In this document: positions 34,934-53,436 of the stretch, in pieces
How the letters are laid out: each line of letters starts with the position of its first letter
Numbering within the stretch: the first letter of the stretch is position 1
Source: Streptomyces niveus
Lineage (GTDB): Bacteria > Actinomycetota > Actinomycetes > Streptomycetales > Streptomycetaceae
Direction: 5' to 3'
NCBI RefSeq assembly: GCF_001723055.1
Contig: NZ_MDCR01000054.1
Span: 1 to 64,000, forward strand
Length of the DNA stretch: 64,000 bases
Notes under the pieces: model-generated
Database searches by the model: none
What the model saw: the letters and a program-made list of their open reading frames with translations, nothing else
What the model was told of the DNA's origin: nothing
Translations under genes and position numbers: made by a program

Positions 34934-37900
34934 TCAGGCGGTCATCAGGCGCCGCAGGTCCGTCACGTACTTGCGGATGAGGGCCGGGGACAGGCGCGGC
35001 ACATCCCGGTCCGGGCCGAGGCCGGCCTCCTGGACGGCCTCGCGGAAGCGGACCGAAGGGACGTCCGAACCTGGTACGACCTCCCCCGGTTCCTGGAAGC
35101 CTCGCAGCAGCGGGAGAACGGTGTACTGGCGCTGTGCCTCGGGCAGATTGCGCAGGGCGGCCTCGATACGGACGAGCCAGTCCCCGTGGTCCGCGATCCG
35201 CTCGATACCGTGGCCGTCCTCGATGAGCCAGTCCACGAACGTGTCGAGTGAGATGCCGTCGTCGTGCGGGTTCACCAGGCTGAAGGTGCGGTATCCGGAG
35301 GTGCTCCGTCCCAGCGTGACGACGGACGCCGAGGTGAAGTCGACGGGCAGCCCGTCGTAGTGGGCCCGCGCCGCCTCGCCGCCGCCGGTCCGGTAGAAGG
35401 AGTTCGGGGCCACGCCCGTCGCGAGGACGCTGAAGAGCAGCCGGCTGAACATGTCGTGCGCGTTCAGCTGCCCGGCGTACCGGCTGTGCGCCAGGATCAT
35501 GTTGGAGCGGAACACCGTCACCGGCAGGTCGCACAGGTCGTGTGCCTCGCGCAGCAGCACCTCCCCCGCCCACTTGCTCGTCGTGTAGCCGCCGGCGTAC
35601 GCGTCGTCGACGGGCTGTACCGGCAGCGCGGCGCGCACGTCGGTGTCCTCGTCGAGAGGCTGTCCCTTCCGCGAGGCGGACACGGCCACGCTGGATATGT
35701 ACGTGAACGGCTTGAGCCGCTTGGTCAGGGACAGCCGGATGAGCTCCGCGGTCCCGAGGACGTTGGCGTCGAACAGGTGGCGGTAGGGCAGCATGTGGTT
35801 GACGAGGGCGCCCGCGTGGACGATCAGGTCGACCTCACCGGTCAGCCGTTCCCACGTCACCTCGTCCAGGCCCAGTCGTGGCTCGGCGATGTCACCGGCC
35901 AGCACTTCCAGGTGGTCGGCGGCCAACTCCTCGTAAGTGCAGGTCAGTTCGGGGTCGGCGCTGCCGAAGGCGTCGGCCAGTCGCTGTGCGGCGGCGTCCG
36001 GGTCCTTGCCGCGGACCACGACCGTCAGCCTGCCGCCGGCCGGGGCAAGCCGCTGGAGCCACTCAAGGGTGAGGAAGCGTCCCAGGTAGCCGCTCGCGCC
36101 GGTCAGCAGGACGCGGCGTGGCTCCCCGGCGGGGCACGGGAGCCGGCGGGCGCCGTCGAGAGTCGCCGCGTCGATGAACCGGCCGAGGACGAGGTCCTTG
36201 GCGTGCGTCTCGGTGGCGTCCTCGCCGTGCACCGACGCGAAGGTGGGCCGGGTCGCGGTGGCCGTGCGCTTGGCCTCGATATAGGCGGCCAGCTGCCGCA
36301 GGTCGTGCGCGGGGCTGATGATGACGTCGACCGGTACGGGGACACCGAAGGTGTCGTGCAGCAGGTTCGACAGTGACACCGCGGACAGCGAGTCGCCGCC
36401 GAGGTCCCGGAAGTGCGCGGAGGGGCTCACCTCCGTCGTCGAGCCCACCAGCAGCGCCCGCGCGGCCCGCTGGACCGTTTCCAGCACCGGCCGGTCGCCG
36501 CCGGTGCGGCGCAGGTCGACCAACTCCCGGGTCTCGTGGGCCGAGATCTCGGCGTACAGCTGCTCCAGGCGCTCGCCGTACCGCTCCACGAGCTGGGGCC
36601 ACAGCAGCTTTCGCTGGTCCGAGAGCAGACCGTTGGCCTGGCTGAACGGCTCGGTCTCGAGCAGCAGAGCCCTGGGGATCTCGTACGAGTGCAGGCCGGC
36701 GTCCTTCGCGATCCGCCGGAGCGATTCGCTCAGCAGTTGTTCGAGACGTTCCCGGTCGTCCCCGTACCGCTGAAGGGCGTCCGGCGTGGGTACGACGACG
36801 GCGAGCAGGTAGGAGCGCTCGCTGTTGCCGTAGAGGAAGATCTGCCGCACCAACGGGCTTGCGGCGAACGTCGATTCCAGTCTGGCGACCGCCACGAACT
36901 CGCCCTGGGACAGCTTCAGGACGCTCTTGCGGCGGTCCACGACGGCGATACGGCGTGGGCCCAGCTCCGCGACGATGTCGCCGGTCCGGTAGTAACCGTC
37001 CTCGTCGAAGAGTTCCGCCGTCAGCTCGGGCTGCTTGTAGTAGCCGGCGACGCCGTCGGCCTTCACCAGGAGCTCGCCGCGCGGGTGCGGGGTGTCGGTG
37101 CGGAAGTACCCCAGCTCGGGCACGTCGGCCAGCTTGTAGTCGATCACCGGCGGGGACAGCACGTGGCCGTCGGCGGCGATGCCCACGACCTCCGTGGAGC
37201 CGTACACGTTGTGCAGGGGAACGCCGAGCAGGTTCTCGGTGAACTCGGTCAGCGCGGCGGACAGCGGCGCGGAGCCGCAGCTGGCCCAGCCGACGCGCCC
37301 TCCGAGGACGTCGTCGCGGAGCTGCCCGCGCACCTCGGTGGCGGCCCGCTCCGGGTCGGTGCCGGCGGAGATCCGCAGGTCCAGCTCGCTGCGGTGGAGC
37401 TGGTGGAGCATCTCGCACACGCGCGGCACGAGGGAGAGCTCGGTGGGCCGTACGAGCGCGATGTCCTCGAAGAACGTCGACAGGTCGCTGCTGGCGGTGA
37501 AGCAGTTGGTGCCGCCGCGCGCCAGTGTGTTCGTCAGCGAGAAGTGGCCCGCGACATGGCTCATCGGTGTGTAGTTGAGGGTGACGGTGTCCGTGCCCGT
37601 CCGCTTCGCCAGGTACTCCCACATCACCCTGGCCAGCCGCTCGGTGTACATCGCGCCCTTGGGCGTTCCCGTGCTCCCCGAGGTGTAGATGAGTATCGAG
37701 AGGGGGTCCTCGTCGTCGCCGGGTATGTACGGCGGTGCGTCGGGCAGGGCCGCGCCGCGGCCGAGGACCTCCGACAGGGCGACGACCTCCACGTCCCGTC
37801 CGGCCCGGGTCAGAGTGTCGCGGGCGGCGGCGAATCGCTCCGCCTGGTCCTCGACGAGCGGGTGGTGGTCGAACACGACCAGCCGCCGGACCGACGGTGT

Positions 37901-38323
37901 GCGCAGGGACAGCTCGGTCGCCGTGCCCAGTCGTTCGGCGCTCGCCGCGACGAGGGACGGCTCGGCCTCCGCCATGATGGAGATCAGCTGCCCGGTCGCC
38001 GCACTGCTCTGCAACGGGGCCATCACGGCGCCGAGATGGGCGCACGCCAGGTTCAGCGTCGCGTAGTCCCGGCTGCTGAAGCCGAGGAGGGCCACCCGGT
38101 CGCCCGCGACGAGAGGGGACCGCGGGTGGTGGTGCCACTCGCTCGCCACCGCCTGGACGCGGCTCCACAACTGCCGGTAGGTGGTCGTCTCGTAGCGCGG
38201 CAGCAGCCGGACCGAGACGCGCCCGGTCCGGTCGTCCCGTACGAACTCCCTCGCACGCTCACCGACGGCGGGCCGGTCCGGATGGCGCTCGAAGGCCTGT
38301 GCCATTACTTGCGCGAGTCGCAC
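34934..38323 (-). CDS. Carboxylic acid reductase (A-PCP-thioester reductase)
   Basis: A 1129-residue CAR. An adenylation domain (about 1-600, IYTSGSTGTPKGAMYTERL, NVYGSTEVVGIA, GYYRTGD) activates a carboxylate. A carrier domain (GGDSLSAVSLS, Ser about 646) holds it as a thioester. An SDR-type reductase domain (from about 735, VLLTGASGYLG; YxxxK in GGYTTSKWAGE, about 916) releases an aldehyde with NADPH. The size and order match CARs, which favour aromatic acids. The GTG start has GGAG six bases upstream. It lies 129 bases after the carbamoyltransferase in the same direction, at the end of the aminobenzoate operon. It may reduce the aminobenzoate carboxyl group. Confidence 0.92.
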   Translation of the reverse strand: MRLAQVMAQAFERHPDRPAVGERAREFVRDDRTGRVSVRLLPRYETTTYRQLWSRVQAVASEWHHHPRSPLVAGDRVALLGFSSRDYATLNLACAHLGAVMAPLQSSAATGQLISIMAEAEPSLVAASAERLGTATELSLRTPSVRRLVVFDHHPLVEDQAERFAAARDTLTRAGRDVEVVALSEVLGRGAALPDAPPYIPGDDEDPLSILIYTSGSTGTPKGAMYTERLARVMWEYLAKRTGTDTVTLNYTPMSHVAGHFSLTNTLARGGTNCFTASSDLSTFFEDIALVRPTELSLVPRVCEMLHQLHRSELDLRISAGTDPERAATEVRGQLRDDVLGGRVGWASCGSAPLSAALTEFTENLLGVPLHNVYGSTEVVGIAADGHVLSPPVIDYKLADVPELGYFRTDTPHPRGELLVKADGVAGYYKQPELTAELFDEDGYYRTGDIVAELGPRRIAVVDRRKSVLKLSQGEFVAVARLESTFAASPLVRQIFLYGNSERSYLLAVVVPTPDALQRYGDDRERLEQLLSESLRRIAKDAGLHSYEIPRALLLETEPFSQANGLLSDQRKLLWPQLVERYGERLEQLYAEISAHETRELVDLRRTGGDRPVLETVQRAARALLVGSTTEVSPSAHFRDLGGDSLSAVSLSNLLHDTFGVPVPVDVIISPAHDLRQLAAYIEAKRTATATRPTFASVHGEDATETHAKDLVLGRFIDAATLDGARRLPCPAGEPRRVLLTGASGYLGRFLTLEWLQRLAPAGGRLTVVVRGKDPDAAAQRLADAFGSADPELTCTYEELAADHLEVLAGDIAEPRLGLDEVTWERLTGEVDLIVHAGALVNHMLPYRHLFDANVLGTAELIRLSLTKRLKPFTYISSVAVSASRKGQPLDEDTDVRAALPVQPVDDAYAGGYTTSKWAGEVLLREAHDLCDLPVTVFRSNMILAHSRYAGQLNAHDMFSRLLFSVLATGVAPNSFYRTGGGEAARAHYDGLPVDFTSASVVTLGRSTSGYRTFSLVNPHDDGISLDTFVDWLIEDGHGIERIADHGDWLVRIEAALRNLPEAQRQYTVLPLLRGFQEPGEVVPGSDVPSVRFREAVQEAGLGPDRDVPRLSPALIRKYVTDLRRLMTA

Positions 38324-38451
38324 GGTGATCTCCGCGTCGCATAGGTGGCGTACGTGTCTGGAGACAGCCGGCCCCTCGGCCCGCCACTTCTCCGCGCCGG
38401 GCGTCGGCGGGCCGTTTCTCCAGGGCGCGACATGCTACATGTGCCTTGCAA

Positions 38452-40119
38452 TCAGGGGGAGTTGGTGTAGAGCGTCCCCTCGGACCAGATGTAACGAGTC
38501 CCGCCCCACCGGGCCGCCGACTCGACGTCGGGAAAGAAGCCACGGCCCTCGAGGTTCGCGCTCGTGTTGCAGAGCACAGGTACGCCGCTGATCTCCGCGT
38601 AGGCGACGAGGATACGAGCGGTGTCGGTGTCCTGGGTCGACGCGATGGTCTGGAGCCGGGCGGTGCCGTCCAGATGCACGACCGCCGGGACGCGCTCGGC
38701 CCAGCCGGGCCGCATACGGTGCTCGAAGATCATGTAGGGGTCGGGCGTGCCCGGGGCGAAGACCTCCGGCGCGCGGTCCTCCAGGCAGATGGGCGCGACG
38801 GGCCGGTACGAGGCCCGGTTCTTGATGTCGTTGAGCCGGTCCTTCATCCGGGTGTCGGTCGCGGGCGCCAGGATGCTCCGGTTGCCCAGAGCGCGCGGGC
38901 CCAGCTCGGCCCGGCCGGACAGGACGACCACCGGTTCGCCCTCGGTGTGCAGGAGGGCGGCCAACTGCCGTTCGTCGCAAGGCTCCGCACGCCACCCGTC
39001 GGGAAGGGTGCCCGTGGTGATCCGCGGTCCGCTGTAGACGTCCCACTCCAGCGCCGTCCGGCCGCTCCGGAACATCTCGCAGGCCGCCGTTCCGATGGCC
39101 GCCCCCGCGTCGTTGGGGAAGGGCGGGACGAAGACCTCGTCGAAGACCCCGCTGGCCCGGATCGCGCTGTTCCACTTGATGTTGAGCGCGCAGCCGCCGC
39201 CGAGCACCAGGTTGTGGCCGCCGTCGGGGAAGCGGCCGCGCACCGCCGAGGTGAGCCGCTGGAGCAGGTTGTGGCCGACGTAGGCCTGGTACGTGGCGAT
39301 GAGGTCCGCGTTGGACAGGCCCGGCATCAGCTCGTCCCTGTTCGCCGCGACCTTGTCGCCCAGCACGCCCACCTTGTCGACGGGTAGGTCCCGGAACTCG
39401 GCCATGAGGGCGTCGAAGACGGCGAAGGCACCGGTCTCGACCCGGCCTTGGGCCGCGTACGCCATGGCCTTCCCCGCGACGGAGAGGTGCTGGCGGATGT
39501 ACGCGTCGGACGTCACGTCGTCGGTGTTGAGCAGGTACGGCTCGAACCGCGAGCAGAAGGCCGCGAAGCTGCCTCCGAAGACGGGCATCAGGGCCTCGAC
39601 GAAGGTCACCTCCCTTGTGGCGGCCCGCACTTGGTAGAGGCGCGGCGTGATGAGGCCGTCCCAGACCAGGACGAACGCGTCTTCGCCCCGGGCGGCGAAC
39701 GGGCTTGAGCAGTACGTGCCGATGAGATGGTTGGCGACGTGGGTGTAGCTGGCGTAGTTGTCGAGACCGTGGCCGCTGAAGGTGTGGCGTTGCAGCGGCC
39801 CGTCGTCGCCGGGGCTCTCCAGGTACGGTGCGACCCGGAGCTGGACCGGCAGGCCGGCGGCGTTCACCGTGACGGCGGTCCGGCCCGCGGCGTCCTTCGT
39901 GTACCAGCCGTCGACCACGAACTGGTCGATGTCGGCGGGTGCCAGACCCTCCGCGGCGAGGATCCCGGCGACGCGTTCCAGGTCGCCGAGGGGGCTGTAG
40001 CGTTCGCCGTTGTTCAGCTTCTCGATCTCGTAGCTGAAGAGAAGACGGCCGTCTTCGATGACGGCGATCCCGCCGTCGTGCGATGCCTTGATCCCGCATA
40101 TGAGCATGTGGTCAGCCAC
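38452..40119 (-). CDS. NodU/TobZ-type O-carbamoyltransferase
   Basis: A 555-residue carbamoyltransferase. The N-terminal ASKHA-like domain shows CGIKASHDGGIAVIEDG and THVANHLIGTYCSSPFA. The C-terminal part shows LGPRALGNRSIL, YRPVAPICLEDRAPEVF and VPVLCNTSANLEGRGF, hallmarks of antibiotic carbamoyltransferases that pass the carbamoyl of carbamoyl phosphate to a hydroxyl via carbamoyl-adenylate. GTG at 40119 and ATG at 40107 are both possible starts. It lies in line with the aminobenzoate genes and next to the carboxylic acid reductase. A benzylic alcohol made after reduction would be a logical acceptor, but this is inferred. Confidence 0.88.
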   Translation of the reverse strand: MADHMLICGIKASHDGGIAVIEDGRLLFSYEIEKLNNGERYSPLGDLERVAGILAAEGLAPADIDQFVVDGWYTKDAAGRTAVTVNAAGLPVQLRVAPYLESPGDDGPLQRHTFSGHGLDNYASYTHVANHLIGTYCSSPFAARGEDAFVLVWDGLITPRLYQVRAATREVTFVEALMPVFGGSFAAFCSRFEPYLLNTDDVTSDAYIRQHLSVAGKAMAYAAQGRVETGAFAVFDALMAEFRDLPVDKVGVLGDKVAANRDELMPGLSNADLIATYQAYVGHNLLQRLTSAVRGRFPDGGHNLVLGGGCALNIKWNSAIRASGVFDEVFVPPFPNDAGAAIGTAACEMFRSGRTALEWDVYSGPRITTGTLPDGWRAEPCDERQLAALLHTEGEPVVVLSGRAELGPRALGNRSILAPATDTRMKDRLNDIKNRASYRPVAPICLEDRAPEVFAPGTPDPYMIFEHRMRPGWAERVPAVVHLDGTARLQTIASTQDTDTARILVAYAEISGVPVLCNTSANLEGRGFFPDVESAARWGGTRYIWSEGTLYTNSP

Positions 40120-40209: not shown

Positions 40210-41448
40210 TCAGCGGCGGTTCAGCCGCACGGGCAGTGAGTGGAGCCCGCGAATGATCGTGCTGGTGCGCCACCGCAGTTCCTCGGGGTCGGCCGCCAGC
40301 CTCATGGCGGGGAACGCGTCGAGCAGCGCGCCGAACGCCACCCGGACCTCCACCCTGGCCAGCGGCGCCCCGAGGCAGTGGTGGATGCCGTGCCCGAAGG
40401 CCAGATGGCCGCCGTCGGTGGGCCTGCGGACGTCCAGCGCGTGCGGGTCGTCGAAGCGCTGTGGATCACGGTTGGCGGAGGCGATCGCCAGCAGTACGAA
40501 GTCGCCGGCCGGGATCTCGACGTCGCCGATGGTCAGGGACTCCGTCGCACACCGGAAGGAGGCGTGCTTCAACGGGCTCTCCAGCCTGAGGAATTCCTCG
40601 ACCGCGCCGGGCAGGAGGGAGCGGTCCTCGCGCAGCGCCTCCCACTGGTCCAGGTTCCGCATCAGGTGGAGCGTGCCGTTGCCCAGGGCGTTGAGGGTGG
40701 TCTCGAAACCGGCGACGAACAGCAGGTACGCCGTCGAGACGAGTTCGGTCTCGGTCAGCTGGTGGTCGTCGTCGTGTGCCGCGACCAGGGCGGTGAGTAT
40801 GTCGTCGGTGGGCTCGCGGCGTTTGCGTTCGATGAGTTGGCCGAGGTAGGCGACCACCTCGGTCGTGGCGGCGGCGGCCGCTTCAGGAGAGTCGCCCGAG
40901 ACGAGCGCCTTGGACCAGGACTTGAAGTTCTCCTGCTCCTCGACCGGCACACCCAGCAGCAGACAGATCACCCGGATCGGCAGCGGGAACGCGAAGTCGT
41001 CCAGCAGGTCCACCGTGCCGTCGTCCGTCAGGGTGTCGATCAGCTCGCCGGTGATCCGCTCGATCTCGGGGCGGAGTGCTTCAACTGCGCGACTGGTGAA
41101 GGCCTTGCTCACGAGCTTGCGCATCCGGGTGTGGTCCGGCGGGTCGGAGTTCAGCATGTGGCTGGCGATGGCCGGTGAGAAGCCGGCGCGTCGGTTGTTG
41201 TCCGGCTCGTTCTGCGCGAACAGGCCGTCCATCCTGTTCAGGTCGGTGCTCAACCGGGGATCCGCCAGCGCGGAGCGCACCGCCTCGTACCCGATGATGA
41301 GCCAGACCGGCAGTCCGCCGCACACGGGGACTCCCGGGGGCATCCGCACCCGGTGCACCGAGCCTTCGGGGGCGAGCTTCGCGTACACCGCGTAGGGGTC
41401 CTGCACGAACGCGTCGTCGAGTTCCAGAGGGCTTGAGTCCTGATCCAT
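40210..41448 (-). CDS. Cytochrome P450 portion, possibly translated from an internal start
   Basis: A 412-residue CYP105/107-like P450. It has an I-helix FVAGFETTLNALG (acid-alcohol pair E-T present), an ExxR motif in EEFLRLESPL and a heme loop FGHGIHHCLGAPLAR with the Cys near residue 356. All parts needed for normal oxygen activation are present, so it is a candidate for hydroxylating the terpenoid tail, for example the methyl later O-methylated. It is listed separately because GAGGA plus ATG at 41448 would allow independent translation, although no stop divides it from the DAHP synthase. Confidence 0.6.
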   Translation of the reverse strand: MDQDSSPLELDDAFVQDPYAVYAKLAPEGSVHRVRMPPGVPVCGGLPVWLIIGYEAVRSALADPRLSTDLNRMDGLFAQNEPDNNRRAGFSPAIASHMLNSDPPDHTRMRKLVSKAFTSRAVEALRPEIERITGELIDTLTDDGTVDLLDDFAFPLPIRVICLLLGVPVEEQENFKSWSKALVSGDSPEAAAAATTEVVAYLGQLIERKRREPTDDILTALVAAHDDDHQLTETELVSTAYLLFVAGFETTLNALGNGTLHLMRNLDQWEALREDRSLLPGAVEEFLRLESPLKHASFRCATESLTIGDVEIPAGDFVLLAIASANRDPQRFDDPHALDVRRPTDGGHLAFGHGIHHCLGAPLARVEVRVAFGALLDAFPAMRLAADPEELRWRTSTIIRGLHSLPVRLNRR

Positions 41449-42921
41449 GGGCGCTTCCTCGAAGATGTTGTTGGGTTCACGCGCCGAACGGGGCGGGAGT
41501 ACTGCTGTGCCGTGCGCCCCAGGCCGTTCGGCGTTCACCGCCGCGTCCGGCGCCGCGACGCCGGCTGCTCCTGGGTCGAACATCTCGGCGACCAGGACGG
41601 CGAGTTCGAGCGCCTGGTCTCCGTTGAGGCGCGGGTCGCACGCCGACTCGTATCTGCGGTGCAGGTCGTCGAGTCCCAGCTGAGCGCCGCCGCCGACGCA
41701 CTCGGTCACGTCCTCGCCGGTCAGCTCCACATGCAGTCCGCCGACGTGGGTGCCGAGCGCCTGGTGCACCTCGAAGAAGCCGGCGACCTCGGCGAGGATG
41801 TCCTCGAACCGCCTGGTCTTGTGCCCGCTGGGCGCCTCGAAGGTGTTGCCGTGCATCGGGTCGCACACCCACACCACCGGCGCGCCGGACGCCGTGACCT
41901 TCTCCACGAGCTGCGGCAGCAGGTACCGCACGCGGTGCGCGCCCATGCGGACGATGAACGTCAGCCGGCCCGGCCGCCGGTCGGGGTCGAGCCGGTCGAT
42001 CAGGGCCAGCGCCTGCTCGGGTGTGGCGGTGGGGCCCAGCTTCACGGCGATCGGGTTGTCGATGGTCGCGAAGTAGGCGACATGGGCGCCGTCGAGCTGT
42101 CGGGTGCGGTCGCCGATCCACAGGAGGTGGCCGCTGCCCGCGTGCCGTCGGCCGGTACGCGGGTGGTGGCGGGTCAGCGCGGCCTCGTAGTCGAGCAGCA
42201 GTCCCTCGTGGCTGGCGAAGAACTCCGGCGTACGCGACGGGTCTTCGCCGCGCGCGTCCTCGCGGGACAGCGCCTGGCCGATTCGGCCGGCGAGTTCGCC
42301 GTGGCGTTCACCGGCGGGTGAGCGGGAGACGAAGTCCTGGTTCTCCTTGTGCAGTTGGCGCGGGTCGGTGCCGGCGCGGGCGCGCATGACGTCCAGGGTG
42401 TGGCGCGAAGCGTCGTACATCCGAAGCAGCCGGGCCGGGTCCGGCCGTCGTTCGGCCTCGCTGAAGCCGATGCCGTTCACCGCGTCGCCCCGGTAGACGG
42501 GGAGCGTGTGCCCGTCGACGGTCTCGGTCGGCCGGGACCGGGGCTTCGCGTACTGCCCGGCGATGCGGCCCACCGTGACCACCGGCACGGCCGACGCGTG
42601 GCTGAGGACCACGGCCATCCGCTCCAGGAGACGCAGTTTGCCGTGGATCGCCGGTGCCGAGAGGTCGTCGAACCGTTCGGCGCAGTCGCCACCCTGGAGC
42701 AGGAACGCCTTGCCCTCGGCCGCCCTGGCGAGTCGTGCGGTGAGGGTGTCGCACTCCTGCGGCGTGACCAACGGGGGCGAGGCCGCCAGGTGTTCGGTCA
42801 CATCGCCGAGCTCGGCCGGGCCGGGCCACTCCGGCCGCTGGTGGGCGACGAGTGTCCGCCAGTGCGCGGCGGCTTCGCCGGTGCGGGTCAACGTGTTCTC
42901 CGTCCGCTTCTCATGGCTCAA
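40210..42921 (-). CDS. Class II DAHP synthase in one reading frame with a cytochrome P450
   Basis: This 903-codon frame has no stop between two whole enzymes. Residues about 12-455 are a plant-type (AroAII) DAHP synthase, the first shikimate-pathway step: QRPEWPG, FLLQGGDCAERF, KPRSRPTE, DPMHGNTFEAPSGHKTRRF, CVGGGAQL. After an Ala/Pro linker of about 35 residues comes a complete P450 from Met492. A GAGGA seven bases before that internal ATG could start the P450 separately. TTG at 42921 or TTG at 42891 (GGAG six bases upstream) could be the start. A duplicated DAHP synthase supplies chorismate for p-aminobenzoate. The stop of the N-oxygenase gene is 13 bases upstream. Confidence 0.85.
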   Translation of the reverse strand: MSHEKRTENTLTRTGEAAAHWRTLVAHQRPEWPGPAELGDVTEHLAASPPLVTPQECDTLTARLARAAEGKAFLLQGGDCAERFDDLSAPAIHGKLRLLERMAVVLSHASAVPVVTVGRIAGQYAKPRSRPTETVDGHTLPVYRGDAVNGIGFSEAERRPDPARLLRMYDASRHTLDVMRARAGTDPRQLHKENQDFVSRSPAGERHGELAGRIGQALSREDARGEDPSRTPEFFASHEGLLLDYEAALTRHHPRTGRRHAGSGHLLWIGDRTRQLDGAHVAYFATIDNPIAVKLGPTATPEQALALIDRLDPDRRPGRLTFIVRMGAHRVRYLLPQLVEKVTASGAPVVWVCDPMHGNTFEAPSGHKTRRFEDILAEVAGFFEVHQALGTHVGGLHVELTGEDVTECVGGGAQLGLDDLHRRYESACDPRLNGDQALELAVLVAEMFDPGAAGVAAPDAAVNAERPGAHGTAVLPPRSAREPNNIFEEAPMDQDSSPLELDDAFVQDPYAVYAKLAPEGSVHRVRMPPGVPVCGGLPVWLIIGYEAVRSALADPRLSTDLNRMDGLFAQNEPDNNRRAGFSPAIASHMLNSDPPDHTRMRKLVSKAFTSRAVEALRPEIERITGELIDTLTDDGTVDLLDDFAFPLPIRVICLLLGVPVEEQENFKSWSKALVSGDSPEAAAAATTEVVAYLGQLIERKRREPTDDILTALVAAHDDDHQLTETELVSTAYLLFVAGFETTLNALGNGTLHLMRNLDQWEALREDRSLLPGAVEEFLRLESPLKHASFRCATESLTIGDVEIPAGDFVLLAIASANRDPQRFDDPHALDVRRPTDGGHLAFGHGIHHCLGAPLARVEVRVAFGALLDAFPAMRLAADPEELRWRTSTIIRGLHSLPVRLNRR

Positions 42922-42934
42922 CGGCGCGGGGCCG

Positions 42935-43864
42935 TCATCGCCGGACCATCTCGACCAGGTCGTGGCTGATGCCCAGGTCGTCGAGAAGCAGCTGCAACGG
43001 TCCGGTGTCGCGCGCGGGTACGGGACGGGACGCGGCCCACTCCCTCAGCTGACCGGTGTCGATCTCGAAGCCGCCCTGGGCCGCCACGGCCACCCAGGGG
43101 TCCAGGTCCGCGGAGCGGAACGCGGTCAGCCCGGTGACGAGTGCCTCGCGGAACATCCCCTGCTGTACGCCGTCCAGGTTCCGGTAGAGCGAGCCGCACA
43201 ACTCCCTGAACACCACGGCGTGTCCGCTCTCGTCCCGCCGGTGAAGATCGGTGGTGATCCGGTTCATCGGCTGGATCTCCTGGGCGGTGGCCAGCGTGGA
43301 GAGGAACCCGCTGATGGTCGTCTCGGCGGCCAGGGAGAACGCGATGTCGACGATGTCGCGGTCGAAGCCGGACAGCCCGGCGCGGACCGCGTCCCGTCCC
43401 CGGACGACCGACCAGACGCCCGGCGCGAACCGTACGTCCGCCAGGTCGCGCCGTCTGCGGGTGACGCCGACGGCGTTGTGGCACATCAGGATGTGGTAGT
43501 GCTCGTCGATGATCGTCTGGTGCAGCGCGTCGACGGCGACGTCGTCGCGGCGTACGGGGATCCGATCCTGGAGCATCAACCGGCAGGCCGGCAGGATGAT
43601 CTCGTCCTCGATGGCCGCGGTCTTCGCGTTGTACGCGATCCACGACGCGGACAGGATGCGCTCACGGGCGTCCCGGTCGAGCCGGTCCGCGCCCGGCAGG
43701 GCGAGGACCGGGACGAGGTGTTCGGGGAAGTCCGGCAGCGCCGCGTCGAAGTGACCGTCGAGGTCGAGCTCGTCCTTCTTGACGGCCACCCGCTTCCCCC
43801 AGCGGAGCGTCAACTGCACCAGCAAGTCACGCTCGTACTCGGGTACTTCACGTGCCGCCGTCAT
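42935..43864 (-). CDS. bezJ: AurF-type di-iron arylamine N-oxygenase
   Basis: A 309-residue member of the p-aminobenzoate N-oxygenase (AurF/CmlI) family. All seven metal ligands known for AurF can be placed with one constant shift of 15: E86, E121, H124, E181, H208, E212, H215 (seen in AIEDEII, IDEHYH, AAETT and LHRRDESGH). It is therefore expected to be active and to oxidise an arylamine, here p-aminobenzoate or its prenylated form, to the hydroxylamine. The ATG at 43864 follows AAGGAGG and overlaps the ADC lyase stop. In the benzastatin pathway, as I recall it, BezJ does this N-hydroxylation. The gene symbol rests on that resemblance. Confidence 0.87.
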   Translation of the reverse strand: MTAAREVPEYERDLLVQLTLRWGKRVAVKKDELDLDGHFDAALPDFPEHLVPVLALPGADRLDRDARERILSASWIAYNAKTAAIEDEIILPACRLMLQDRIPVRRDDVAVDALHQTIIDEHYHILMCHNAVGVTRRRRDLADVRFAPGVWSVVRGRDAVRAGLSGFDRDIVDIAFSLAAETTISGFLSTLATAQEIQPMNRITTDLHRRDESGHAVVFRELCGSLYRNLDGVQQGMFREALVTGLTAFRSADLDPWVAVAAQGGFEIDTGQLREWAASRPVPARDTGPLQLLLDDLGISHDLVEMVRR

Positions 43865-44718
43865 GGGGAAACCTCCTTCATGGGTTCACCGCGGGAATCG
43901 GGCAGTTCACCGGTCGGTACGGCGAGCGCGGCCAGGCGCGACTGCCAGCGCGCGGCCTCCTCGGCGTCCGTGTCCCGGAACCGGCCCAGGCCCTCGGTGA
44001 CCGGCCGGATGCCGTGCAGGGCGTTCAGCGTCCAGACCGGCAGGCCGGCGAGATCCGGCGCGGCGGCCCGCTCGGTGACGGCCCGGAGTCCTGCCGTACG
44101 GGCCAGCTCGCCGAGCAGGGAGCGGGTGATCCCGGGGAGCAGACCGGGGCCGGGGGGTGGCCCGCACAGCGTGTCGCCCCGCCACCAGACGATGCTCGTG
44201 GACGCCCCTTCGACCACGTGTCCTTCCGCCGAGACCAGCAGGGCCTCGTCGGCTCCCGCCGTGGTCGCGTCGGCGCGCAGGGCGGCCAGGTGGTCCAGGT
44301 CGGCGCCCTTGACTGCGGGCAGCCGACGGCGGTCGGGGCCTGTCGGCGTCCACAGCCGGACGGTCGCGGTGCGCGGTGGCGCGGGGCGCAGCCACATCCG
44401 CAGCCGCGTTCCCGACCCGGTGTCCACGAGTTCGACGCGGGGGAACCATCGGCCCCGGGCGGGCAACGACTCGGCGACGGCCCGCATGAACCGGTCCGTC
44501 CGGTCCGGCCCCGGTTCGGGGAAGCGGTCGCAGGACGAACGGAAGCGCTCCGCGTGCCGGTCGAGTCCCCGTACGCGCCCCTCGTCCACGAGCCAGGAGT
44601 CGATGACGAGCACCGTCCCGGTGGCGTCGGCCGTCGACCATCCGCCGTCGGCGTCCCACCACCGGCGGGCGTCCCGGGTGGCCGCTGTGCCCGCCGCCGC
44701 GTTCGTCTCCGTGTTCAT
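43861..44718 (-). CDS. pabC: Aminodeoxychorismate lyase (PabC-like, PLP fold type IV)
   Basis: A 285-residue class IV aminotransferase-fold enzyme that would split 4-amino-4-deoxychorismate into p-aminobenzoate and pyruvate. The PLP-binding Lys is most likely in LPAVKGADLDHLAALR, and the cofactor-phosphate region is EGASTSIVWWRGD, then PGITRSLLGELA. Start and stop both overlap neighbours as ATGA (with the ADC synthase and the N-oxygenase), so the three are translationally coupled. It is probably a pathway-dedicated copy rather than the folate-pathway gene. Confidence 0.9.
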   Translation of the reverse strand: MNTETNAAAGTAATRDARRWWDADGGWSTADATGTVLVIDSWLVDEGRVRGLDRHAERFRSSCDRFPEPGPDRTDRFMRAVAESLPARGRWFPRVELVDTGSGTRLRMWLRPAPPRTATVRLWTPTGPDRRRLPAVKGADLDHLAALRADATTAGADEALLVSAEGHVVEGASTSIVWWRGDTLCGPPPGPGLLPGITRSLLGELARTAGLRAVTERAAAPDLAGLPVWTLNALHGIRPVTEGLGRFRDTDAEEAARWQSRLAALAVPTGELPDSRGEPMKEVSP

Positions 44719-46838
44719 CGTGGGGTGCCGCCCACGTCCGACACCGCCGGCGCACGCCAGGCTCGCAGTGACGCCGCCGCCTTGAGCAGCATCTCCTCGT
44801 ACTCCTCGTCCGGGTCGGAGTCGAGCACGATCGCCCCGCCGGCTCCGATGGTCAGCCGGTCCCCGACGCGGACCGCGGTACGGATCACGATGTTCAGGTC
44901 CGTGCCGCCGGAGAGGCCGAAGTAGCCGAGGGTGCCGGAGTAGACGCCCCGGGCCTCTGTCTCCAGGCGGTCGATGATCTCCATGGTGCGCAGCTTCGGC
45001 GCCCCGGTCATCGACCCGCCGGGGAAGCACTGCCGGGCGCAGTCCAGCGCGCTGACCCCGTCGCCCAGCCGTCCGTGAACGGTGGAGACCAGTTGGTGCA
45101 CGGTCTCGTAGCTCTCGACGGCCAGGTACGGGTCGACCTCGATGCTGCCGACGTCGCACACCCGGCCCAGGTCGTTGCGGAGCAGGTCGACGATCATCAG
45201 GTTCTCGGCCTGCGTCTTGGCGCTGGACGCGAGGGTGGCGGCCAGTTCGGCGTCGCGTACCGGGTCGGCGTCGCGCGGGGCCGTGCCCTTGATCGGCTTG
45301 CTGGTGACGGTGCGGTCCCTCTCGATGCGCAGGAACCGCTCCGGCGACGAGCTGAAGACCGAGACGTCGCCGAGGCGCAGGAGCGCGGCGTACGGTGCCG
45401 GGTTGGCCCGGCGCAGCCTCAGGTAGAAGGCCGTGTCGTCGTCGTGGAACGGCAGGTGCAGGTTGTTGGTCAGACAGATCTCGTAGCTCTCGCCCCGGTT
45501 GAGCTCCTGTCGGCACTCCGTGATGTCCGCGAGGTACTGGCTCCGGCCGCGGCCGAGGAACTCCTCGGCGTTCGGGGGCGGGCCGGCGGCGGGTTCGGGC
45601 GGCGGCTCGGCGGCGGCCGGGTGCAGGCCCCTCAGGAGTGCGGAGGTCCGTTCCACCCACTCCTGCGCGTCGCGCCGGGTGCTCTCGTCGTGGACGGCCA
45701 CCAGGTACGTCAGTCCCTCCTGGTGGTCGATCGCGATGACGCGATCGGCGAACATCCAGGCGGCGTCCGGTGTTTCGGCGGTGTGGCGGGCCGTGGCCCC
45801 GCATTCGGCCTTGAGTTCGTAGCCGAAGTAGCCGACGTAGCCGCCGGTCAGGTCGAAGGGCAGGTCCGACTCGGGGATGCGCCGCTCGCGCAGCCGCCGG
45901 TCGAGGACGTCGAACACGCTGCCGGCGAGGAGGTGGACGCCGTTCGCGTCGCGCGCTTCCACGGCCCCGCTGCCGGTGCGGTAGGTCAGGACCTCGCTGA
46001 GCGGACCCGATGTGTCGCCGAGGAACGAGAACCGGGACAGTCCTTCCTCCACCCGGCTGCTGTCCAGCCAGAAGCAGTACGGGACGTTGTCGAAGAGCTC
46101 GCGGAAGATGGTCTCGGAATCGGCGGCGGTCGACACGACCGTGCTGATGATGTCCAGTCCCCCGACCGCGCCGGGCGTGCCGCCGGACAGCGCGGAGACG
46201 TTGACCATGTCGGTTCCGGCGCCGCCTCCGGTGACGGACGGCCGTTGTACGGGCCGCGCCCGGCGGGTCAGGTCGGCGAAGTTCCGCAGGATCTCACGCC
46301 CGTACTGGGAAGCGACCGACTCGGGGTGGAACTGCACGCCCCACTGCGGCAGTTCACGGTGCCGCAGCGCCATGAGCACACCGTCGTCCGCCCAGGCGGT
46401 GGCGACGAGTTCCTCGGGCAGGGGCTCCCGTACGCACAGCGAGTGGTAGCGCACGGCGACGAACTCACGCGGGACTCCGGCGAACAGCGGGTCTCCCTCG
46501 TGGGAGACCTTGGCGAGGTGCCCGTGCCGCGGTTCGGGCGCGGCGCCCACCGACGCTCCGGCCAGGTGCGCGATCATCTGATGCCCGAAGCAGACACCCA
46601 GCACGGGCAGCGTGCCGCGGCGCAGCAGGTCGCCGAGGAGTCCGACGTCGCGGGGGTTCTGCGGCCGGCCGGGGCCGGGCGAGACCACGATGTTGTCGAA
46701 GTCCTCCAGCCGCAGACCGGCCAGCGTCGGATCGTCGTTGACCATGACGACGGGCTTGTGGCCGTTGATGTCGGCGATCAACTGGTACAGGTTGAAGGTG
46801 TACGAGTCGTAGTTGTCCAGCAGCAACGTACGCATCAC
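44715..46838 (-). CDS. pabAB: Aminodeoxychorismate synthase, fused PabA-PabB
   Basis: A 707-residue fusion. Residues 1-195 are a class I glutamine amidotransferase (DNYDSYTFN, SPGPGRPQ, nucleophile Cys83 in GVCFGHQ, and His/Glu in FHPESVAS). Residues about 230-700 are the chorismate-binding synthase (GGYVGYFGYELK, LNRGESYEICLTN, CFPGGSMTGAPK, YSGTLGYFGLSG). The active-site PIKGT with Lys, rather than PIAGT, marks an ADC synthase and not an anthranilate synthase. GTG at 46838 or ATG at 46835 overlaps the N-acetyltransferase stop. It feeds ADC lyase to give p-aminobenzoate. Confidence 0.94.
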   Translation of the reverse strand: MMRTLLLDNYDSYTFNLYQLIADINGHKPVVMVNDDPTLAGLRLEDFDNIVVSPGPGRPQNPRDVGLLGDLLRRGTLPVLGVCFGHQMIAHLAGASVGAAPEPRHGHLAKVSHEGDPLFAGVPREFVAVRYHSLCVREPLPEELVATAWADDGVLMALRHRELPQWGVQFHPESVASQYGREILRNFADLTRRARPVQRPSVTGGGAGTDMVNVSALSGGTPGAVGGLDIISTVVSTAADSETIFRELFDNVPYCFWLDSSRVEEGLSRFSFLGDTSGPLSEVLTYRTGSGAVEARDANGVHLLAGSVFDVLDRRLRERRIPESDLPFDLTGGYVGYFGYELKAECGATARHTAETPDAAWMFADRVIAIDHQEGLTYLVAVHDESTRRDAQEWVERTSALLRGLHPAAAEPPPEPAAGPPPNAEEFLGRGRSQYLADITECRQELNRGESYEICLTNNLHLPFHDDDTAFYLRLRRANPAPYAALLRLGDVSVFSSSPERFLRIERDRTVTSKPIKGTAPRDADPVRDAELAATLASSAKTQAENLMIVDLLRNDLGRVCDVGSIEVDPYLAVESYETVHQLVSTVHGRLGDGVSALDCARQCFPGGSMTGAPKLRTMEIIDRLETEARGVYSGTLGYFGLSGGTDLNIVIRTAVRVGDRLTIGAGGAIVLDSDPDEEYEEMLLKAAASLRAWRAPAVSDVGGTPR

Positions 46839-47683
46839 GGACCGTCCAAGATTTTCCCGAGCGCCTGGACGTCGCCCGGATCCAGGGTGATCCCGAAGAT
46901 CTCCCGGGGAGCGGAAAGCAGCTCGTCCACGCCGAGTTCCCGTACGGTCGGCGGCCCTTCGGGACGTATCTCCGTGAGCGTGCTGCCGGCGAGGAGGTGC
47001 CTCACTTCGGGCTGGGTGCGCTGGAGGACCATCCGGTGGTTGAACGGCGAGCGCGGATGTGTGAGGCAGAAGTGGTTGAGGAGCTCGAAGTCCGAGGGGT
47101 AGCGCGCGTCGGTGGTGAAGCCGTAGAGCTCCACCGGTCCCTCCGGTCGCAGGAACCGCAGTACGTGTTCACCGGTCGGCTCCCGCAGCAGATCGAACGA
47201 CCAGTCGCCTTCGAGCCGCGCGTTCTCGGCGAGCCGGATCGGTTCGTGCGGCCCGAGGGCACCGAAACTCACGTCGTGGATCCAGCGTTCGCCGTCCGCC
47301 TCCACGCACAGGGCGACGTGCAGGGCCGGCCCGAACTTGCTCCCGGTACGGACGCGCGTCCGGCCGGCGAACGCCGTGAAGGTGAAGCCGACGCGGTCCA
47401 GGACGGCCGCCATCAGTACGACCTGTTCCAGGCACCAGCCGCCGCGGCCCTGCCGCACGATCTTCTCCTGGACGCTGTCCAGGTCGATCGGCACCACCGT
47501 GCGCCCGAGCAGCGCGTCGAGGTTGTCGAAGGCGATCGCGTCGACGTGGGCGGTGTGCAGGCCGCGCAGTGTGGCGAGGTCCGGAGCCACGTCGCCCTGG
47601 TAGCCCACACGGGCCAGGTAGGCGTCCAGGTCGACGCCGCTCCCCTGCCACATCGAGTCTGTCGCACGCAGCTCATCGGTCAT
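46835..47683 (-). CDS. bezG: Arylamine N-acetyltransferase
   Basis: A 282-residue NAT with the full Cys-His-Asp triad: C84 in RGGWCLEQ, H122 in ALHVAL and D137 in IHDVSFG. The family transfers acetyl from CoA to arylamines or to aryl-hydroxylamine oxygens. Next to an AurF-type oxygenase, the likely job is O-acetylation of the N-hydroxy aminobenzoate, making the leaving group for P450 nitrene-type cyclisation, as recalled for BezG in benzastatin. An amide-forming role as in ansamycins is less likely here, since the neighbouring genes are not ansamycin-type. Start and stop overlap UbiA and PabAB. Confidence 0.88.
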   Translation of the reverse strand: MTDELRATDSMWQGSGVDLDAYLARVGYQGDVAPDLATLRGLHTAHVDAIAFDNLDALLGRTVVPIDLDSVQEKIVRQGRGGWCLEQVVLMAAVLDRVGFTFTAFAGRTRVRTGSKFGPALHVALCVEADGERWIHDVSFGALGPHEPIRLAENARLEGDWSFDLLREPTGEHVLRFLRPEGPVELYGFTTDARYPSDFELLNHFCLTHPRSPFNHRMVLQRTQPEVRHLLAGSTLTEIRPEGPPTVRELGVDELLSAPREIFGITLDPGDVQALGKILDGP

Positions 47684-48576
47684 GTGAACTTCCCGGCGAC
47701 CACGGCCGCGAGGATGATCCAGCCGAAGTACGTGTTGGCGACGAAGGTGTCCCAGCACGATTTCGGATCGTCCAGATCGACCCGTACGACCAGACAGGAC
47801 AGATAGATTCCGGCGAGCACGACGATCAGGTAGAACGCCCAGCCGATCGACGTCTGGGAGCCGGCCCACAGCACGCCGCCGACGCTGAGCACGATGAAGA
47901 CCGCCAGCCACGCCTTGGTGGCCTTGCCGAAGAGCAGGGCGGAGGACTTGACGCCGATGTTCCGGTCGTACTCCTTGTCCTGATGGGAGTAGATCCCGTC
48001 GTGAATCAGGGTCCAGAAGGCGCCGCCGGCGTACAGGCCGTACACCGCGAGCGGGTAGTCGGCGCTCTCGGACACCGCCGTCCAGCCGATCAGCACATAG
48101 ACGCTCATGACCAACGCCAGGAACGCCGAAGGCCAGAAGAAGACGCGCTTCATGTAGGGGTAGGCGACGATCAGCGGGTACGAGGCCCCGACGACCAGGG
48201 CCGTCTCCACGTTCGCCACCGCCAGGACCAGCAGGGCGACCACGGCTTGTGCGGCGGCGAACAGAAGAGCGTTCCTGACGCTGACCGTTCCCGCCGCGAC
48301 CGGACGCGACACGGTGCGGGCGACCCGGACGTCGACGTCCTTGTCGACCACATCGTTGACCGCGCAGGCCGCGCCGCGCACCAGCACGGCGGCGACAGCG
48401 ACCACCACCACCGTGAGCGGGTCCGGTCGCCGGCCGGAGGCGAGGGCGACGGCCCACAGCCCCGGAAGCAGATAGAGGACGTACCCCGTGGGCCTGTCGA
48501 GTCGCATCAACAGGAGATACGCGCGGACCGGGTCCGGGCTCTTCGTGACTACGTCTGTCGATATCTTGTGCAGCAT
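47680..48576 (-). CDS. UbiA-type aromatic prenyltransferase
   Basis: A 298-residue integral membrane enzyme with about eight or nine helices. Both prenyl-diphosphate/Mg sites are intact: NDVVDKDVD (74-82) and YSHQDKEYD (196-204), followed by IGVKSSALLFG. The second motif resembles 4-hydroxybenzoate polyprenyltransferases (UbiA/COQ2 group). In this cluster the acceptor should be p-aminobenzoate, prenylated ortho to the amine with a C10 or methylated C10 donor from the neighbouring synthase. It is positioned 10 bases after the P450 gene and overlaps the NAT gene as ATGA. Confidence 0.92.
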   Translation of the reverse strand: MLHKISTDVVTKSPDPVRAYLLLMRLDRPTGYVLYLLPGLWAVALASGRRPDPLTVVVVAVAAVLVRGAACAVNDVVDKDVDVRVARTVSRPVAAGTVSVRNALLFAAAQAVVALLVLAVANVETALVVGASYPLIVAYPYMKRVFFWPSAFLALVMSVYVLIGWTAVSESADYPLAVYGLYAGGAFWTLIHDGIYSHQDKEYDRNIGVKSSALLFGKATKAWLAVFIVLSVGGVLWAGSQTSIGWAFYLIVVLAGIYLSCLVVRVDLDDPKSCWDTFVANTYFGWIILAAVVAGKFT

Positions 48577-48586: not shown

Positions 48587-49759
48587 TCACCATGTCACCG
48601 GAAGTTGGATCAACCCGCCGATCAGCGTGTTGTGGCGCAGCTTCAGCTCCTCGACACCGACAGCCGGAGCCAGGGTCGGGAATCGTGCGACGAGCTGGGT
48701 GAGGACCACCTGGAGCTGCATCCGGGCCAGCGTCGCGCCGACGCAGTAGTGCGCACCGTGCCCGAACATGAGGCTGCCGGTGGTGTCGCGGGTGACATCG
48801 ACCCGGCCGGCGTCGGCGAAGGCCGTCTCGTCGTGGTTGGCCGCGATGATGTTCAGCATCACGAAGTCGCCGGTACGGATGGTGACTCCGTCGATCTCGA
48901 AGTCCGTGAGCGCATAGCGGGGCATGCCGCCGTTGTGCGGGTTCGGCATCGACACCCGCAGGGTTTCCTCGACGGCGCCGGGGATGAGACCCGGGTCCAG
49001 GAGCAACGCCTGCCACTGCTCGGGGTTGGCCAGCAACAGCAGCACACAGGTGCCGATCCGGGCCACCGTGGTCTCGTAACCGCCGAACAGCAACAGCGCG
49101 GTCAGTCCGAGGACTTCGTTGTCGCTGATCCCCTCGGTCGCGCAGATCCTGGAGATCACGTCGTCGCCCGGATGTCGCCGCTTCTCGGCGACGAGTTGCC
49201 TGCAGTAGCCGAACAGCTCGCCCAGCCCCTGCTTGGACCTGACCGGGTCCCCGACGTTGGCGGCGTCCTGGGTCCAGCCGCCGAACCGGTCCTTGTCCTC
49301 CTGGGGCACGCCCAGCCACTCGCAGATCACCTGAATCGGCAGCGACAGCGCCAACGCCTCGCGCAGGTCCACCGGTGGCTTCCGCCCGGCCATCGCATCC
49401 AGGAGCTGTCCGGTCTGTTTCTCGACGTAGGGCCGCAGCGCCAGCATCCGCTCGGGTGAGAAGTGCGGCTCCAGCAGCGCGCGCAACCGGGCGTGGTCGG
49501 TGGCGAAGTCGCCCAGCAGGTTGGCGAGAAGGGCCGATCCGCTGTCCTTCGCCGCGGCCTCGGGATCGGGATGGGAGCGGCCGAGCCGGTCGTCGTCGAG
49601 CAACTGCCTCACCCAGGCGTGACCGGTGACCAGCCACGCCTCGTCGCCCTCGGCGGTACGCACCCGGTGGACCGCGCCCTGGGACTGGAGCGTGCGCAGC
49701 CCTGGCGCGAGTCGCAGCACATTCGTCTGCTCGAAAGGCAATTGAGCTGGGGAACTCAC
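48587..49759 (-). CDS. Cytochrome P450
   Basis: A 390-residue bacterial P450. The I-helix reads LLLFGGYETTVARIG, with Gly in place of the usual Ala before GYETT but the acid-alcohol pair kept. ExxR is in VEETLRVSMP. The heme loop is FGHGAHYCVGATLAR, with the Cys near residue 339. It lies between the prenyl diphosphate synthase and UbiA genes in the main operon. It could act on the prenyl chain or in ring closure. Of the three P450s in the locus it cannot be excluded as the BezE equivalent. Confidence 0.9.
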   Translation of the reverse strand: MSSPAQLPFEQTNVLRLAPGLRTLQSQGAVHRVRTAEGDEAWLVTGHAWVRQLLDDDRLGRSHPDPEAAAKDSGSALLANLLGDFATDHARLRALLEPHFSPERMLALRPYVEKQTGQLLDAMAGRKPPVDLREALALSLPIQVICEWLGVPQEDKDRFGGWTQDAANVGDPVRSKQGLGELFGYCRQLVAEKRRHPGDDVISRICATEGISDNEVLGLTALLLFGGYETTVARIGTCVLLLLANPEQWQALLLDPGLIPGAVEETLRVSMPNPHNGGMPRYALTDFEIDGVTIRTGDFVMLNIIAANHDETAFADAGRVDVTRDTTGSLMFGHGAHYCVGATLARMQLQVVLTQLVARFPTLAPAVGVEELKLRHNTLIGGLIQLPVTW

Positions 49760-51136: not shown

Positions 51137-51205
51137 GTGCTCCCGGCATCACACAACGTCACTGATAATTACCGGGAATGGTTCGATGAAAGCTTGAGAG
51201 GCGGA

Positions 51206-52605: not shown

Positions 52606-53436
52606 TCAGGCGCGGACCGCGGTCAGGAAGACGTAACCGCTCTCCGGGGTGACGGCGGACAGACGCATGAAGTCGATGAGCGAGGTGGCCTGTTCGTCGC
52701 CGACGAGCGCGGTCAGCTTGTCGCGGACGGTCTCCACGGCGTCGGCCATGACCGCGAGGGTACGGGAGACGTTGTCGCTGATGTCACGGATCTCCGCGTC
52801 GACGAAACCGTTGGCGGCCAAGGCCGTCCGGTATTCGTCAATCGTGCCCAGGGAGCGCACCGCGTAGTTCTCGCAGATGTGGTCCAGGACCACGCGTCCC
52901 TCGGGGCTGACCGGGCCGCGCTCGATGACGTCGGCGATGGCGAGACGGCCGCCGGGGCGCAGCACGCGGGCGGTCTCGGCGAGCACCTGGCCGCGGTCGG
53001 GCATGTGCCACATCGACTCGAAAGCCCAGGCCGCGTCGAACGAGGCGTCGGGGAAGGGCATGTTCATCGCGTCCGTGAACTGGAACGTGGCGCGGTCGCC
53101 GAGCCCTGCCTCGGCCGCGAGTTCGTTGGCCCGCGCCACCTGGACGTGGCTGACGGAGATGCCCAGCACGTCCACGTCGCAGGCGCGGACGAGCCGCTGC
53201 GCGGGATGGCCGATGCCGCAGCCGATGTCCAGGACCCGCTGGCCGGCCTGCGCGGCGATACCGGCGATCATCATGTCGGTCAGGCGGTCGGTGGCAGCCT
53301 CGATGGAGCTGTCGTCGGCGTCGTCGTCCCAGTACCCGTAGTGCTTGTTGGGGCCCCACGCGGAGCCGTAGATCTGACCGATCCCGTCGTACATGCCGGC
53401 GACGTCACTGGGAGCGGGAAACTGCTGGAGCGTCAT
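52606..53436 (-). CDS. SAM-dependent methyltransferase, probable O-methyltransferase
   Basis: A 276-residue class I methyltransferase. SAM motif I is VLDIGCGIGHPAQRL (68-82). The acidic loop and post-I region includes VDVLGISVSHVQ, motif II is FDAAWAFESMWHMPD and motif III is LRPGGRLAIADV. The N-terminal YGSAWGPNKHYGYW stretch matches small-molecule methyltransferases of the tocopherol/rifamycin O-methyltransferase type. It may methylate the hydroxymethyl made on the prenyl tail, since virantmycin and several benzastatins carry a methoxymethyl group. The ATG at 53436 has ACGGAG six bases before it. A longer frame upstream is not supported. Confidence 0.87.
   Translation of the reverse strand: MTLQQFPAPSDVAGMYDGIGQIYGSAWGPNKHYGYWDDDADDSSIEAATDRLTDMMIAGIAAQAGQRVLDIGCGIGHPAQRLVRACDVDVLGISVSHVQVARANELAAEAGLGDRATFQFTDAMNMPFPDASFDAAWAFESMWHMPDRGQVLAETARVLRPGGRLAIADVIERGPVSPEGRVVLDHICENYAVRSLGTIDEYRTALAANGFVDAEIRDISDNVSRTLAVMADAVETVRDKLTALVGDEQATSLIDFMRLSAVTPESGYVFLTAVRA

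Follow-up and report, generated by a model that had tools for sequence, protein, structure and literature searches.

A co-inherited set of cytochrome P450, carbamoyltransferase and carboxylic acid reductase genes in a bez-type aminobenzoate cluster of Streptomyces niveus

Results

The window analysed in this study is a stretch of 64,000 nucleotides of Streptomyces niveus DNA (contig NZ_MDCR01000054.1, positions 1 to 64,000). It carries a gene cluster of the bez (benzastatin) type, in which genes for an AurF-type N-oxygenase, an arylamine N-acetyltransferase (NAT), a UbiA prenyltransferase, cytochrome P450s, PabAB and a methyltransferase all occur together. A preliminary description of this DNA had placed a carboxylic acid reductase (CAR) and an O-carbamoyltransferase (CT) behind the core genes and in the same direction, and this was borne out: both are intact open reading frames (ORFs) on the minus strand, downstream of the core genes, and both matched family models. 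A cytochrome P450 gene not listed in that description, P450A, was found to belong to the same unit and adjoins CT in all ten clusters where the unit occurs. P450A, CT and CAR are together called the cassette, or trio, below. Read 5' to 3', the minus-strand run consists of the genes for polyprenyl diphosphate synthase, P450B, UbiA, NAT, PabAB, PabC, AurF, DAHP synthase, P450A, CT and CAR. The features are as follows.

34934..38323, minus strand: CAR, an adenylation-carrier-reductase (A-PCP-R) chain of 1129 aa with Asn at residue 941 (gate position); assigned by NCBIfam and domain models and by alignment with solved sequences
38452..40119, minus strand: CT, NodU-type O-carbamoyltransferase, 555 aa; assigned by domain models
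about 40210..41448, minus strand: P450A, TamI-like cytochrome P450, third cassette member, between DAHP synthase and CT
41482..42921 (inner end approximate), minus strand: class II DAHP synthase, N-terminal part of a 903-aa ORF
42935..43864, minus strand: AurF-type aminobenzoate N-oxygenase, core
43861..44718 (start hand-picked), minus strand: PabC-like class IV aminotransferase/aminodeoxychorismate lyase, core
44715..46838, minus strand: PabAB aminodeoxychorismate synthase fusion, core
46835..47683 (start hand-picked), minus strand: NAT, with a putative BezG-like role
47680..48576, minus strand: UbiA-type prenyltransferase, core
48587..49759, minus strand: P450B, cytochrome P450, core, present with and without the cassette
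49808..50875, minus strand: polyprenyl diphosphate synthase, core
51137..52459, plus strand: P450C, cytochrome P450, core
52606..53511, minus strand: methyltransferase, candidate prenyl diphosphate methyltransferase of the BezA type
53611..54615, minus strand: second methyltransferase, conserved among related clusters

Distribution and inheritance of the cassette

Twenty clusters were compared, comprising 17 of the 27 loci found in a scan with AurF, the window and two Streptomyces genomes reached through CT; the other ten AurF loci (L050 and L052 to L060), in which most other core genes are missing, were excluded from the count. The preliminary description had raised the matter of whether bez-type clusters contain CAR and CT, and the answer differed between clusters: the full trio was present in ten of the 20, one cluster (Nocardia seriolae) was decayed, four held relics only and five held nothing. 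The bearers are the window, G344, G044, S. adelaidensis (in which CT is split across two contig ends, with CAR on the second contig), four Lentzea clusters, Umezawaea endophytica and Salinispora pacifica CNR114. None of the 20 clusters had two intact trio members without the third. Clusters with and without the cassette had the same kinds of core genes among those detected, and NAT was retained at 70% identity or more in all ten cassette clusters. A genome-wide search of 17 genomes returned, outside the cassettes, no CAR above 61% identity and no CT above 66%, and the CT match at 66% is a fragment belonging to a Kitasatospora relic. Since P450A, CT and CAR occur together in ten of the 20 related clusters, a chance neighbourhood is not a satisfactory account, and the earlier assignment of CAR and CT to the bez-type aminobenzoate pathway is supported by both the kinds of genes present and their co-inheritance with P450A.

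The trio occurs in three gene orders. In Streptomyces it is colinear after the DAHP synthase gene, in Lentzea and Umezawaea P450A-CT is divergent from CAR beside the DAHP synthase gene, and in Salinispora the trio lies beside the prenyltransferase gene. A tree was built from five core proteins of 18 clusters; N. seriolae and S. samsunensis had too few genes and were excluded. Cassette-free clusters were nested in it within cassette-bearing ones, which makes loss of the cassette likely; four losses are enough by hand parsimony, with several inner supports at 50-76. Deletion scars were also found. In S. ipomoeae, the first P450A codons are fused to a C-terminal piece of CAR. In Kitasatospora sp. 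MAA19, 88 CT residues (67%) are joined to a P450A tail upstream of a methyltransferase gene, and at the same place S. antioxidans and Streptomyces sp. 150FB retain 20 residues of P450A (65-70%) and 22-31 residues of CT (48-55%). The P450A tail was absent at this place from 11 other stretches, including the window; two of these gave CT matches of 26-28%, which we took as chance. The relics of CT plus P450A tail are located as follows.

L107, 9197-9529: Kitasatospora sp. MAA19
L036, 235-370: S. antioxidans
L040, 63-195: Streptomyces sp. 150FB

Among three Streptomyces clusters, the ratio of nonsynonymous to synonymous substitution rates (dN/dS) was 0.24-0.48 for CAR, 0.16-0.24 for CT and 0.18-0.32 for P450A, alongside 0.15-0.38 for three core genes, indicating that the cassette is under purifying selection. 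It is therefore probable that the cassette is an old component of bez-type pathways which has been kept by selection and lost repeatedly; repeated gain is less likely, though it may have occurred where no relic was seen. In the cluster of N. seriolae (L116), CT is full length, only the 3' part of P450A is left, AurF continues at its end into P450A, and PabAB is spread over two frames. Neither DAHP synthase nor CAR was found on the contig of this cluster, and the best CAR match in the whole genome, at 56%, lies on another contig. The cluster looks decayed.

CT and P450A

CT exceeded the cut-offs of Pfam Carbam_trans_N and Carbam_trans_C, which makes it an O-carbamoyltransferase of the NodU/TobZ type. 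It shares these two domains with NodU, TobZ, GdmN and NovN, and its residues 270-526 align with TobZ. It reaches, however, only 117 bits to TobZ and, against NF041651, the equivalog of the NodU nodulation protein, 606.9 bits with a cut-off of 1000. CT likely carbamoylates a hydroxyl, judging from its family. Homologues at 92% identity or more were found in only three of 392 Streptomyces genomes, including that of the window, and the next best was at 69%. Ten further Streptomyces homologues (L124-L133; 51-69% identity) lie in varied neighbourhoods, in which no firm common substrate type was recognised when the neighbourhoods were judged by eye from ORF starts.

Among solved relatives, P450A comes closest to TamI of the tirandamycin pathway, with 746 bits (370 for the second best) and 80.4% identity. 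In the P450 tree, the cassette P450As formed one clade (support 100) that was sister to the TamI clade (93), with 97 for the joint clade; the TamI clade includes near-identical homologues in G316 and G283, and P450A therefore groups with TamI by sequence and tree alike. P450s matching at E <= 1e-130 occurred in only six of the 392 Streptomyces genomes. TamI hydroxylates, epoxidises and hydroxylates again, alternating with the flavin oxidase TamL (PMC11375781). Unlike TamI, P450A belongs to an aminobenzoate-terpene cluster and must therefore have another substrate, and it is a fair inference by analogy that P450A is a hydroxylase or epoxidase of the terpene part. The pathway would thus offer an example of a TamI-type P450 reused in another kind of pathway.

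Two side observations concern P450A and its relatives. DAHP synthase and P450A form a single continuous frame of 903 aa at 40210-42921, which is unbroken also in G344 and S. adelaidensis and has a stop between the two parts in G044; this arrangement may reflect a fusion protein or translational coupling. In G137, two TamI-like P450s (L136 and L137; 66% and 57% identity to P450A) lie about 16 kb apart in a stretch with, by eye, polyketide synthase (PKS) and nonribosomal peptide synthetase (NRPS) genes.

CAR and its gate residue

The window CAR scored 1647.9 bits against the NCBIfam model for carboxylic acid reductase, NF041592 (cut-off 1300), and consists of AMP-binding (adenylation), phosphopantetheine carrier and NAD_binding_4 reductase domains in one chain. 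Its nearest solved sequence is 5msc_A (1383.7 bits), and alignments with 5msc and 5msp placed the carrier serine motif, LGGDSLSAVSL, and the reductase YxxxK motif, as YTTSK. In domain order, motifs and NF041592 match it resembles the bacterial type I CARs of Nocardia iowensis, Segniliparus rugosus and Mycobacterium. Unlike these, the cassette CARs sit inside a natural-product operon and carry Asn, Thr or Ser where the S. rugosus enzyme (SrCAR) has Asp998. In the window CAR this is Asn941, which aligns with residue 998 of 5msp_A (position counted by hand), the Asp of FRSDM; 5msp_A we take to be the Segniliparus CAR and 5mso, presumably, that of Mycobacterium marinum. All three full CARs in the Protein Data Bank (PDB) alignment, 5mso among them, have Asp at the gate.

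The gate aspartate (SrCAR D998; D984 of the N. iowensis enzyme, NiCAR) was found in none of the ten cassette CARs, which have Thr in five cases, Ser in three and Asn in two. Its loss was considered as a cassette-specific signature, since 33 of 34 CARs in a smaller control had Asp, and was discarded as such when a genus-wide control of non-cassette CARs gave Asp in only 43 of 61, the others having Asn (16), Gly (1) or Ser (1). In the midpoint-rooted CAR tree, the ten cassette CARs and nine sister CARs formed a clade (support 100) in which Asp was absent from all 19 members; it was absent also from some CARs outside this clade. The tree left out L139, L171, L172 and the second copies of L149 and L153, which were short, repeated or second tandem matches, as well as CAR matches for which no locus was returned. 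A D998G variant reportedly over-reduces. Asp984 of NiCAR is described as a conserved key residue whose orientation is postulated to be the on/off switch of the reductase domain, with Gly in fungal CARs (PMC5826065), and fungal NcCAR takes aldehydes to primary alcohols (PMC10168641). On the strength of the alignment, over-reduction to the alcohol by the cassette CARs is plausible, and these enzymes, in which Asn, Thr or Ser naturally occupies the proposed gate, may be useful for tests of acid-to-alcohol conversion.

The nine sister CARs (L200-L208), all from Streptomyces and outside cassettes, share 64-79% identity with the cassette CAR and all have Asn at the gate. Within about 8 kb, a class IV aminotransferase gene occurs at six of these loci and a chorismate-binding/amidotransferase fusion at two, that is, at eight of nine in total; an isochorismatase gene lies beside one, and AfsA-type, SDR or MFS genes are near others. 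Homologues of bez-type AurF, NAT, UbiA and CT were absent from the nine stretches. Because the genes in these eight neighbourhoods are of kinds known from aminobenzoate pathways, the substrate may be of the aminobenzoate type: the branch uniting sister and cassette CARs plausibly handles aminobenzoates, and L200-L208 are possible unexplored aminobenzoate-reducing pathways.

Redox partners beside CAR

A GMC-family FAD oxidoreductase gene lies directly downstream of CAR in all five Lentzea and Umezawaea cassettes. Presence was judged by tblastn with the L. jiangxiensis protein as query, to which the other four close homologues are 83-89% identical. Distant homologues were found in G044 (46%; just past CAR on the opposite strand) and Salinispora (41%; about 1.6 kb past CAR). 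No GMC homologue was found in the 64 kb of the window, in the G344 and S. adelaidensis stretches, or in any of the 11 loci of cassette-free or decayed clusters. Redox partners thus vary by lineage, and an alcohol-oxidising flavoprotein often accompanies the cassette. The GMC oxidoreductase genes are located as follows.

L109, 9801-11219
L110, 10052-11470
L111, 8563-9981
L112, 8777-10186
L113, 9460-10866
L139 (G044), 1628-3130
L106, 10564-11976

Two genes beyond CAR in the window were considered as further cassette members, an ArsP-type permease (33720-34853) as a transporter and a RibD_C protein (33077-33655) as a missing aldehyde reductase. Both were set aside because no homologues of them turned up beyond CAR in G344 (4.6 kb covered) and G044 (the L139 stretch). 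A zinc alcohol dehydrogenase gene lies at 60143-61177, about 22 kb away from CAR.

Discussion

Compared with the reference benzastatin/virantmycin bez cluster of Streptomyces sp. RI18 (BGC0001529), the core in the window is alike in the kinds of enzymes, matched by description: an AurF-type N-oxygenase, NAT, a UbiA prenyltransferase, P450s and a candidate 6-methyl-GPP methyltransferase. The window adds P450A, CT and CAR, which the reference cluster is not known to contain. BezG O-acetylates p-hydroxyaminobenzoate (PMC11213898), the P450 BezE performs a nitrenoid cyclisation to an indoline or tetrahydroquinoline (PMC11843346), and BezA methylates geranyl diphosphate at position 6 (PMC10881772). 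Benzastatin C is an amide derivative of virantmycin, and the known products are acids or amides. In the openly licensed literature, neither a benzastatin together with a carbamoyltransferase nor a CAR together with a carbamoyltransferase in a Streptomyces biosynthetic gene cluster was found, and among the matches listed, judged by title and term counts, there was no benzastatin- or virantmycin-type product with a carbamate or hydroxymethyl group; these negatives are weak evidence of novelty.

Considering these results, we propose the following scenario, which builds on gene identities, co-occurrence, shared inheritance and loss, and purifying selection, all taken from the sequences, and in which the chemical steps are inferred. 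The core genes would provide a prenylated, N-oxidised p-aminobenzoate, which, as for benzastatins, a core P450 may cyclise to an indoline or tetrahydroquinoline. CAR would load the para-carboxylate as a carrier-bound thioester and reduce it to the aldehyde and, lacking the gate aspartate, may carry it further to the benzylic alcohol. CT would put a carbamoyl group on this primary alcohol, giving Ar-CH2-O-CO-NH2, and P450A would introduce a further oxygen into the terpene part, in the way that TamI oxidises its own substrate. In GMC-bearing lineages, an alcohol made by P450A may be oxidised on. The acid- and amide-ended benzastatins would then be the forms made where the cassette is missing. 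Because the trio is co-inherited, leaves relics and has likely been lost, the para-carboxylate of the scaffold is probably what CAR activates and reduces. The near all-or-none pattern further suggests that the three steps are interdependent. The carbamoyl mass shift of +43 given in the preliminary description is counted from the alcohol; compared with the acid, the benzylic carbamate would differ by +29.03 and the alcohol by -13.98 (hand arithmetic).

That the three genes form a single tailoring cassette with the carbamate at the CAR-derived benzylic CH2OH is the reading that we tentatively prefer, at somewhat less than an even chance. The end-group branch of CAR and O-carbamoyltransferase suggested in the preliminary description still accounts best for the genes and their shared inheritance, with the amendment that it had missed P450A, which could supply the hydroxyl to be carbamoylated. 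Several observations weigh against the preferred reading. P450A is directly upstream of CT on one strand in all ten cassettes, whereas CAR is divergent in six of them. Lability is to be expected of a p-aminobenzyl carbamate if the lone pair of its nitrogen is free. We know of no test of the effect of Asn, Thr or Ser at the gate position, and the loss of Asp there, shared with 18 of 61 non-cassette CARs, is not specific to cassettes. The M. marinum CAR likewise over-reduces aldehydes in the same assay as NcCAR (PMC10168641) and the full CARs in the PDB alignment all have Asp, so that Asp is no strict bar to over-reduction. Next to CARs with Asn, an SDR gene abuts L203 and L205 and is nearby in L202, as if a separate reductase were used. 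An SDR homologue, 39% identical to the sister-abutting SDR, also lies just past the cassette CAR of G344 in convergent orientation (L103, 3326-4051). As for the earlier proposal of an aldehyde and then an alcohol, no alcohol-forming reductase common to the cassette clusters was found, and the loss of the gate aspartate remains suggestive of the second step. Lastly, the GMC oxidoreductase that adjoins CAR in seven of ten cassettes would oxidise alcohols, and its frequent presence makes a simple succession of acid, alcohol and carbamate less favoured. The product of CAR may be the alcohol or the aldehyde; as the 64 kb of the window contain no GMC gene, we lean to the alcohol in this lineage.

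The strongest competitor, only a little less probable than the benzylic site and likewise short of an even chance, is that the hydroxyl carbamoylated by CT is an allylic or methyl one, made by P450A on the terpene part, while CAR separately yields an uncapped aldehyde or alcohol. A similar layout occurs in FR900482, where the aryl aldehyde and the carbamate are on different carbons. The constant adjacency of P450A and CT is the best argument for such a route, and the close identity of P450A to an enzyme described as a hydroxylase/epoxidase working in turn with a flavin oxidase (PMC11375781) agrees with it; the GMC enzyme would here keep the aldehyde or oxidise the alcohol made by P450A. However, CAR was not seen to be missing alone from any healthy cluster, the sole case of CT without CAR being the decayed one of N. 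seriolae, the lost gate aspartate hints at an alcohol rather than an aldehyde, and the window has no GMC homologue. We therefore place the carbamate on the benzylic hydroxyl slightly ahead of the hydroxyl made by P450A. An early action of CAR, on p-aminobenzoate before or after prenylation, to give an aldehyde for an imine or other bond while CT acts elsewhere, is unlikely, since clusters with and without the cassette do not differ in the core genes detected and, beyond GMC (7/10), no aldehyde-using gene common to the cassette clusters was noticed. The core pathway is described with an O-acetyl leaving group on nitrogen (BezG, PMC11213898; BezE, PMC11843346), which would allow CT to carbamoylate the N-hydroxyl made by AurF in place of the acetate of NAT; as NAT is retained in all ten cassette clusters, such a replacement is unneeded and very improbable. 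We give least credence to the trio being chance neighbours outside the pathway: ten of 20 related clusters do lack the complete set, but the co-occurrence across genera in three gene orders and the relics in four cassette-free clusters speak strongly against it.

The carbamate of FR900482 and mitomycin is a leaving group in bioactivation. These compounds share with the proposed product a reduced aminobenzoate-derived aryl carbon and a carbamate, and differ from it in being built from 3-amino-5-hydroxybenzoate and an aminosugar-derived unit, not from p-aminobenzoate and a terpene. A more speculative form of the benzylic proposal, which we consider doubtful, is that a single gateless CAR performs a four-electron reduction and CT caps the product, giving a natural p-aminobenzyl carbamate on a benzastatin-type tetrahydroquinoline or indoline, that is, a latent aza-quinone-methide electrophile, the acid and amide benzastatins coming from lineages in which this warhead has been lost. 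If a benzylic carbamate is formed, it would represent a new natural alkylator design and have its synthetic counterpart in the self-immolative p-aminobenzyl carbamate linkers used in antibody-drug conjugates. In a compound family known for antiviral and antioxidant activity, new members that end in an alcohol, aldehyde or carbamate are predicted from the cassette. What had appeared as an odd gene pair is now a defined module of three genes, for which ten clusters with the full set and ten without it form a natural contrast, with deletion scars between them.

Elsewhere in the window, three huge ORFs (787, 3094 and 3328 aa), whose base composition is of the coding type, occupy positions 2-21347 and possibly encode a PKS or NRPS, and a protein with an Mrr-type restriction endonuclease domain is encoded at 27668-28486.

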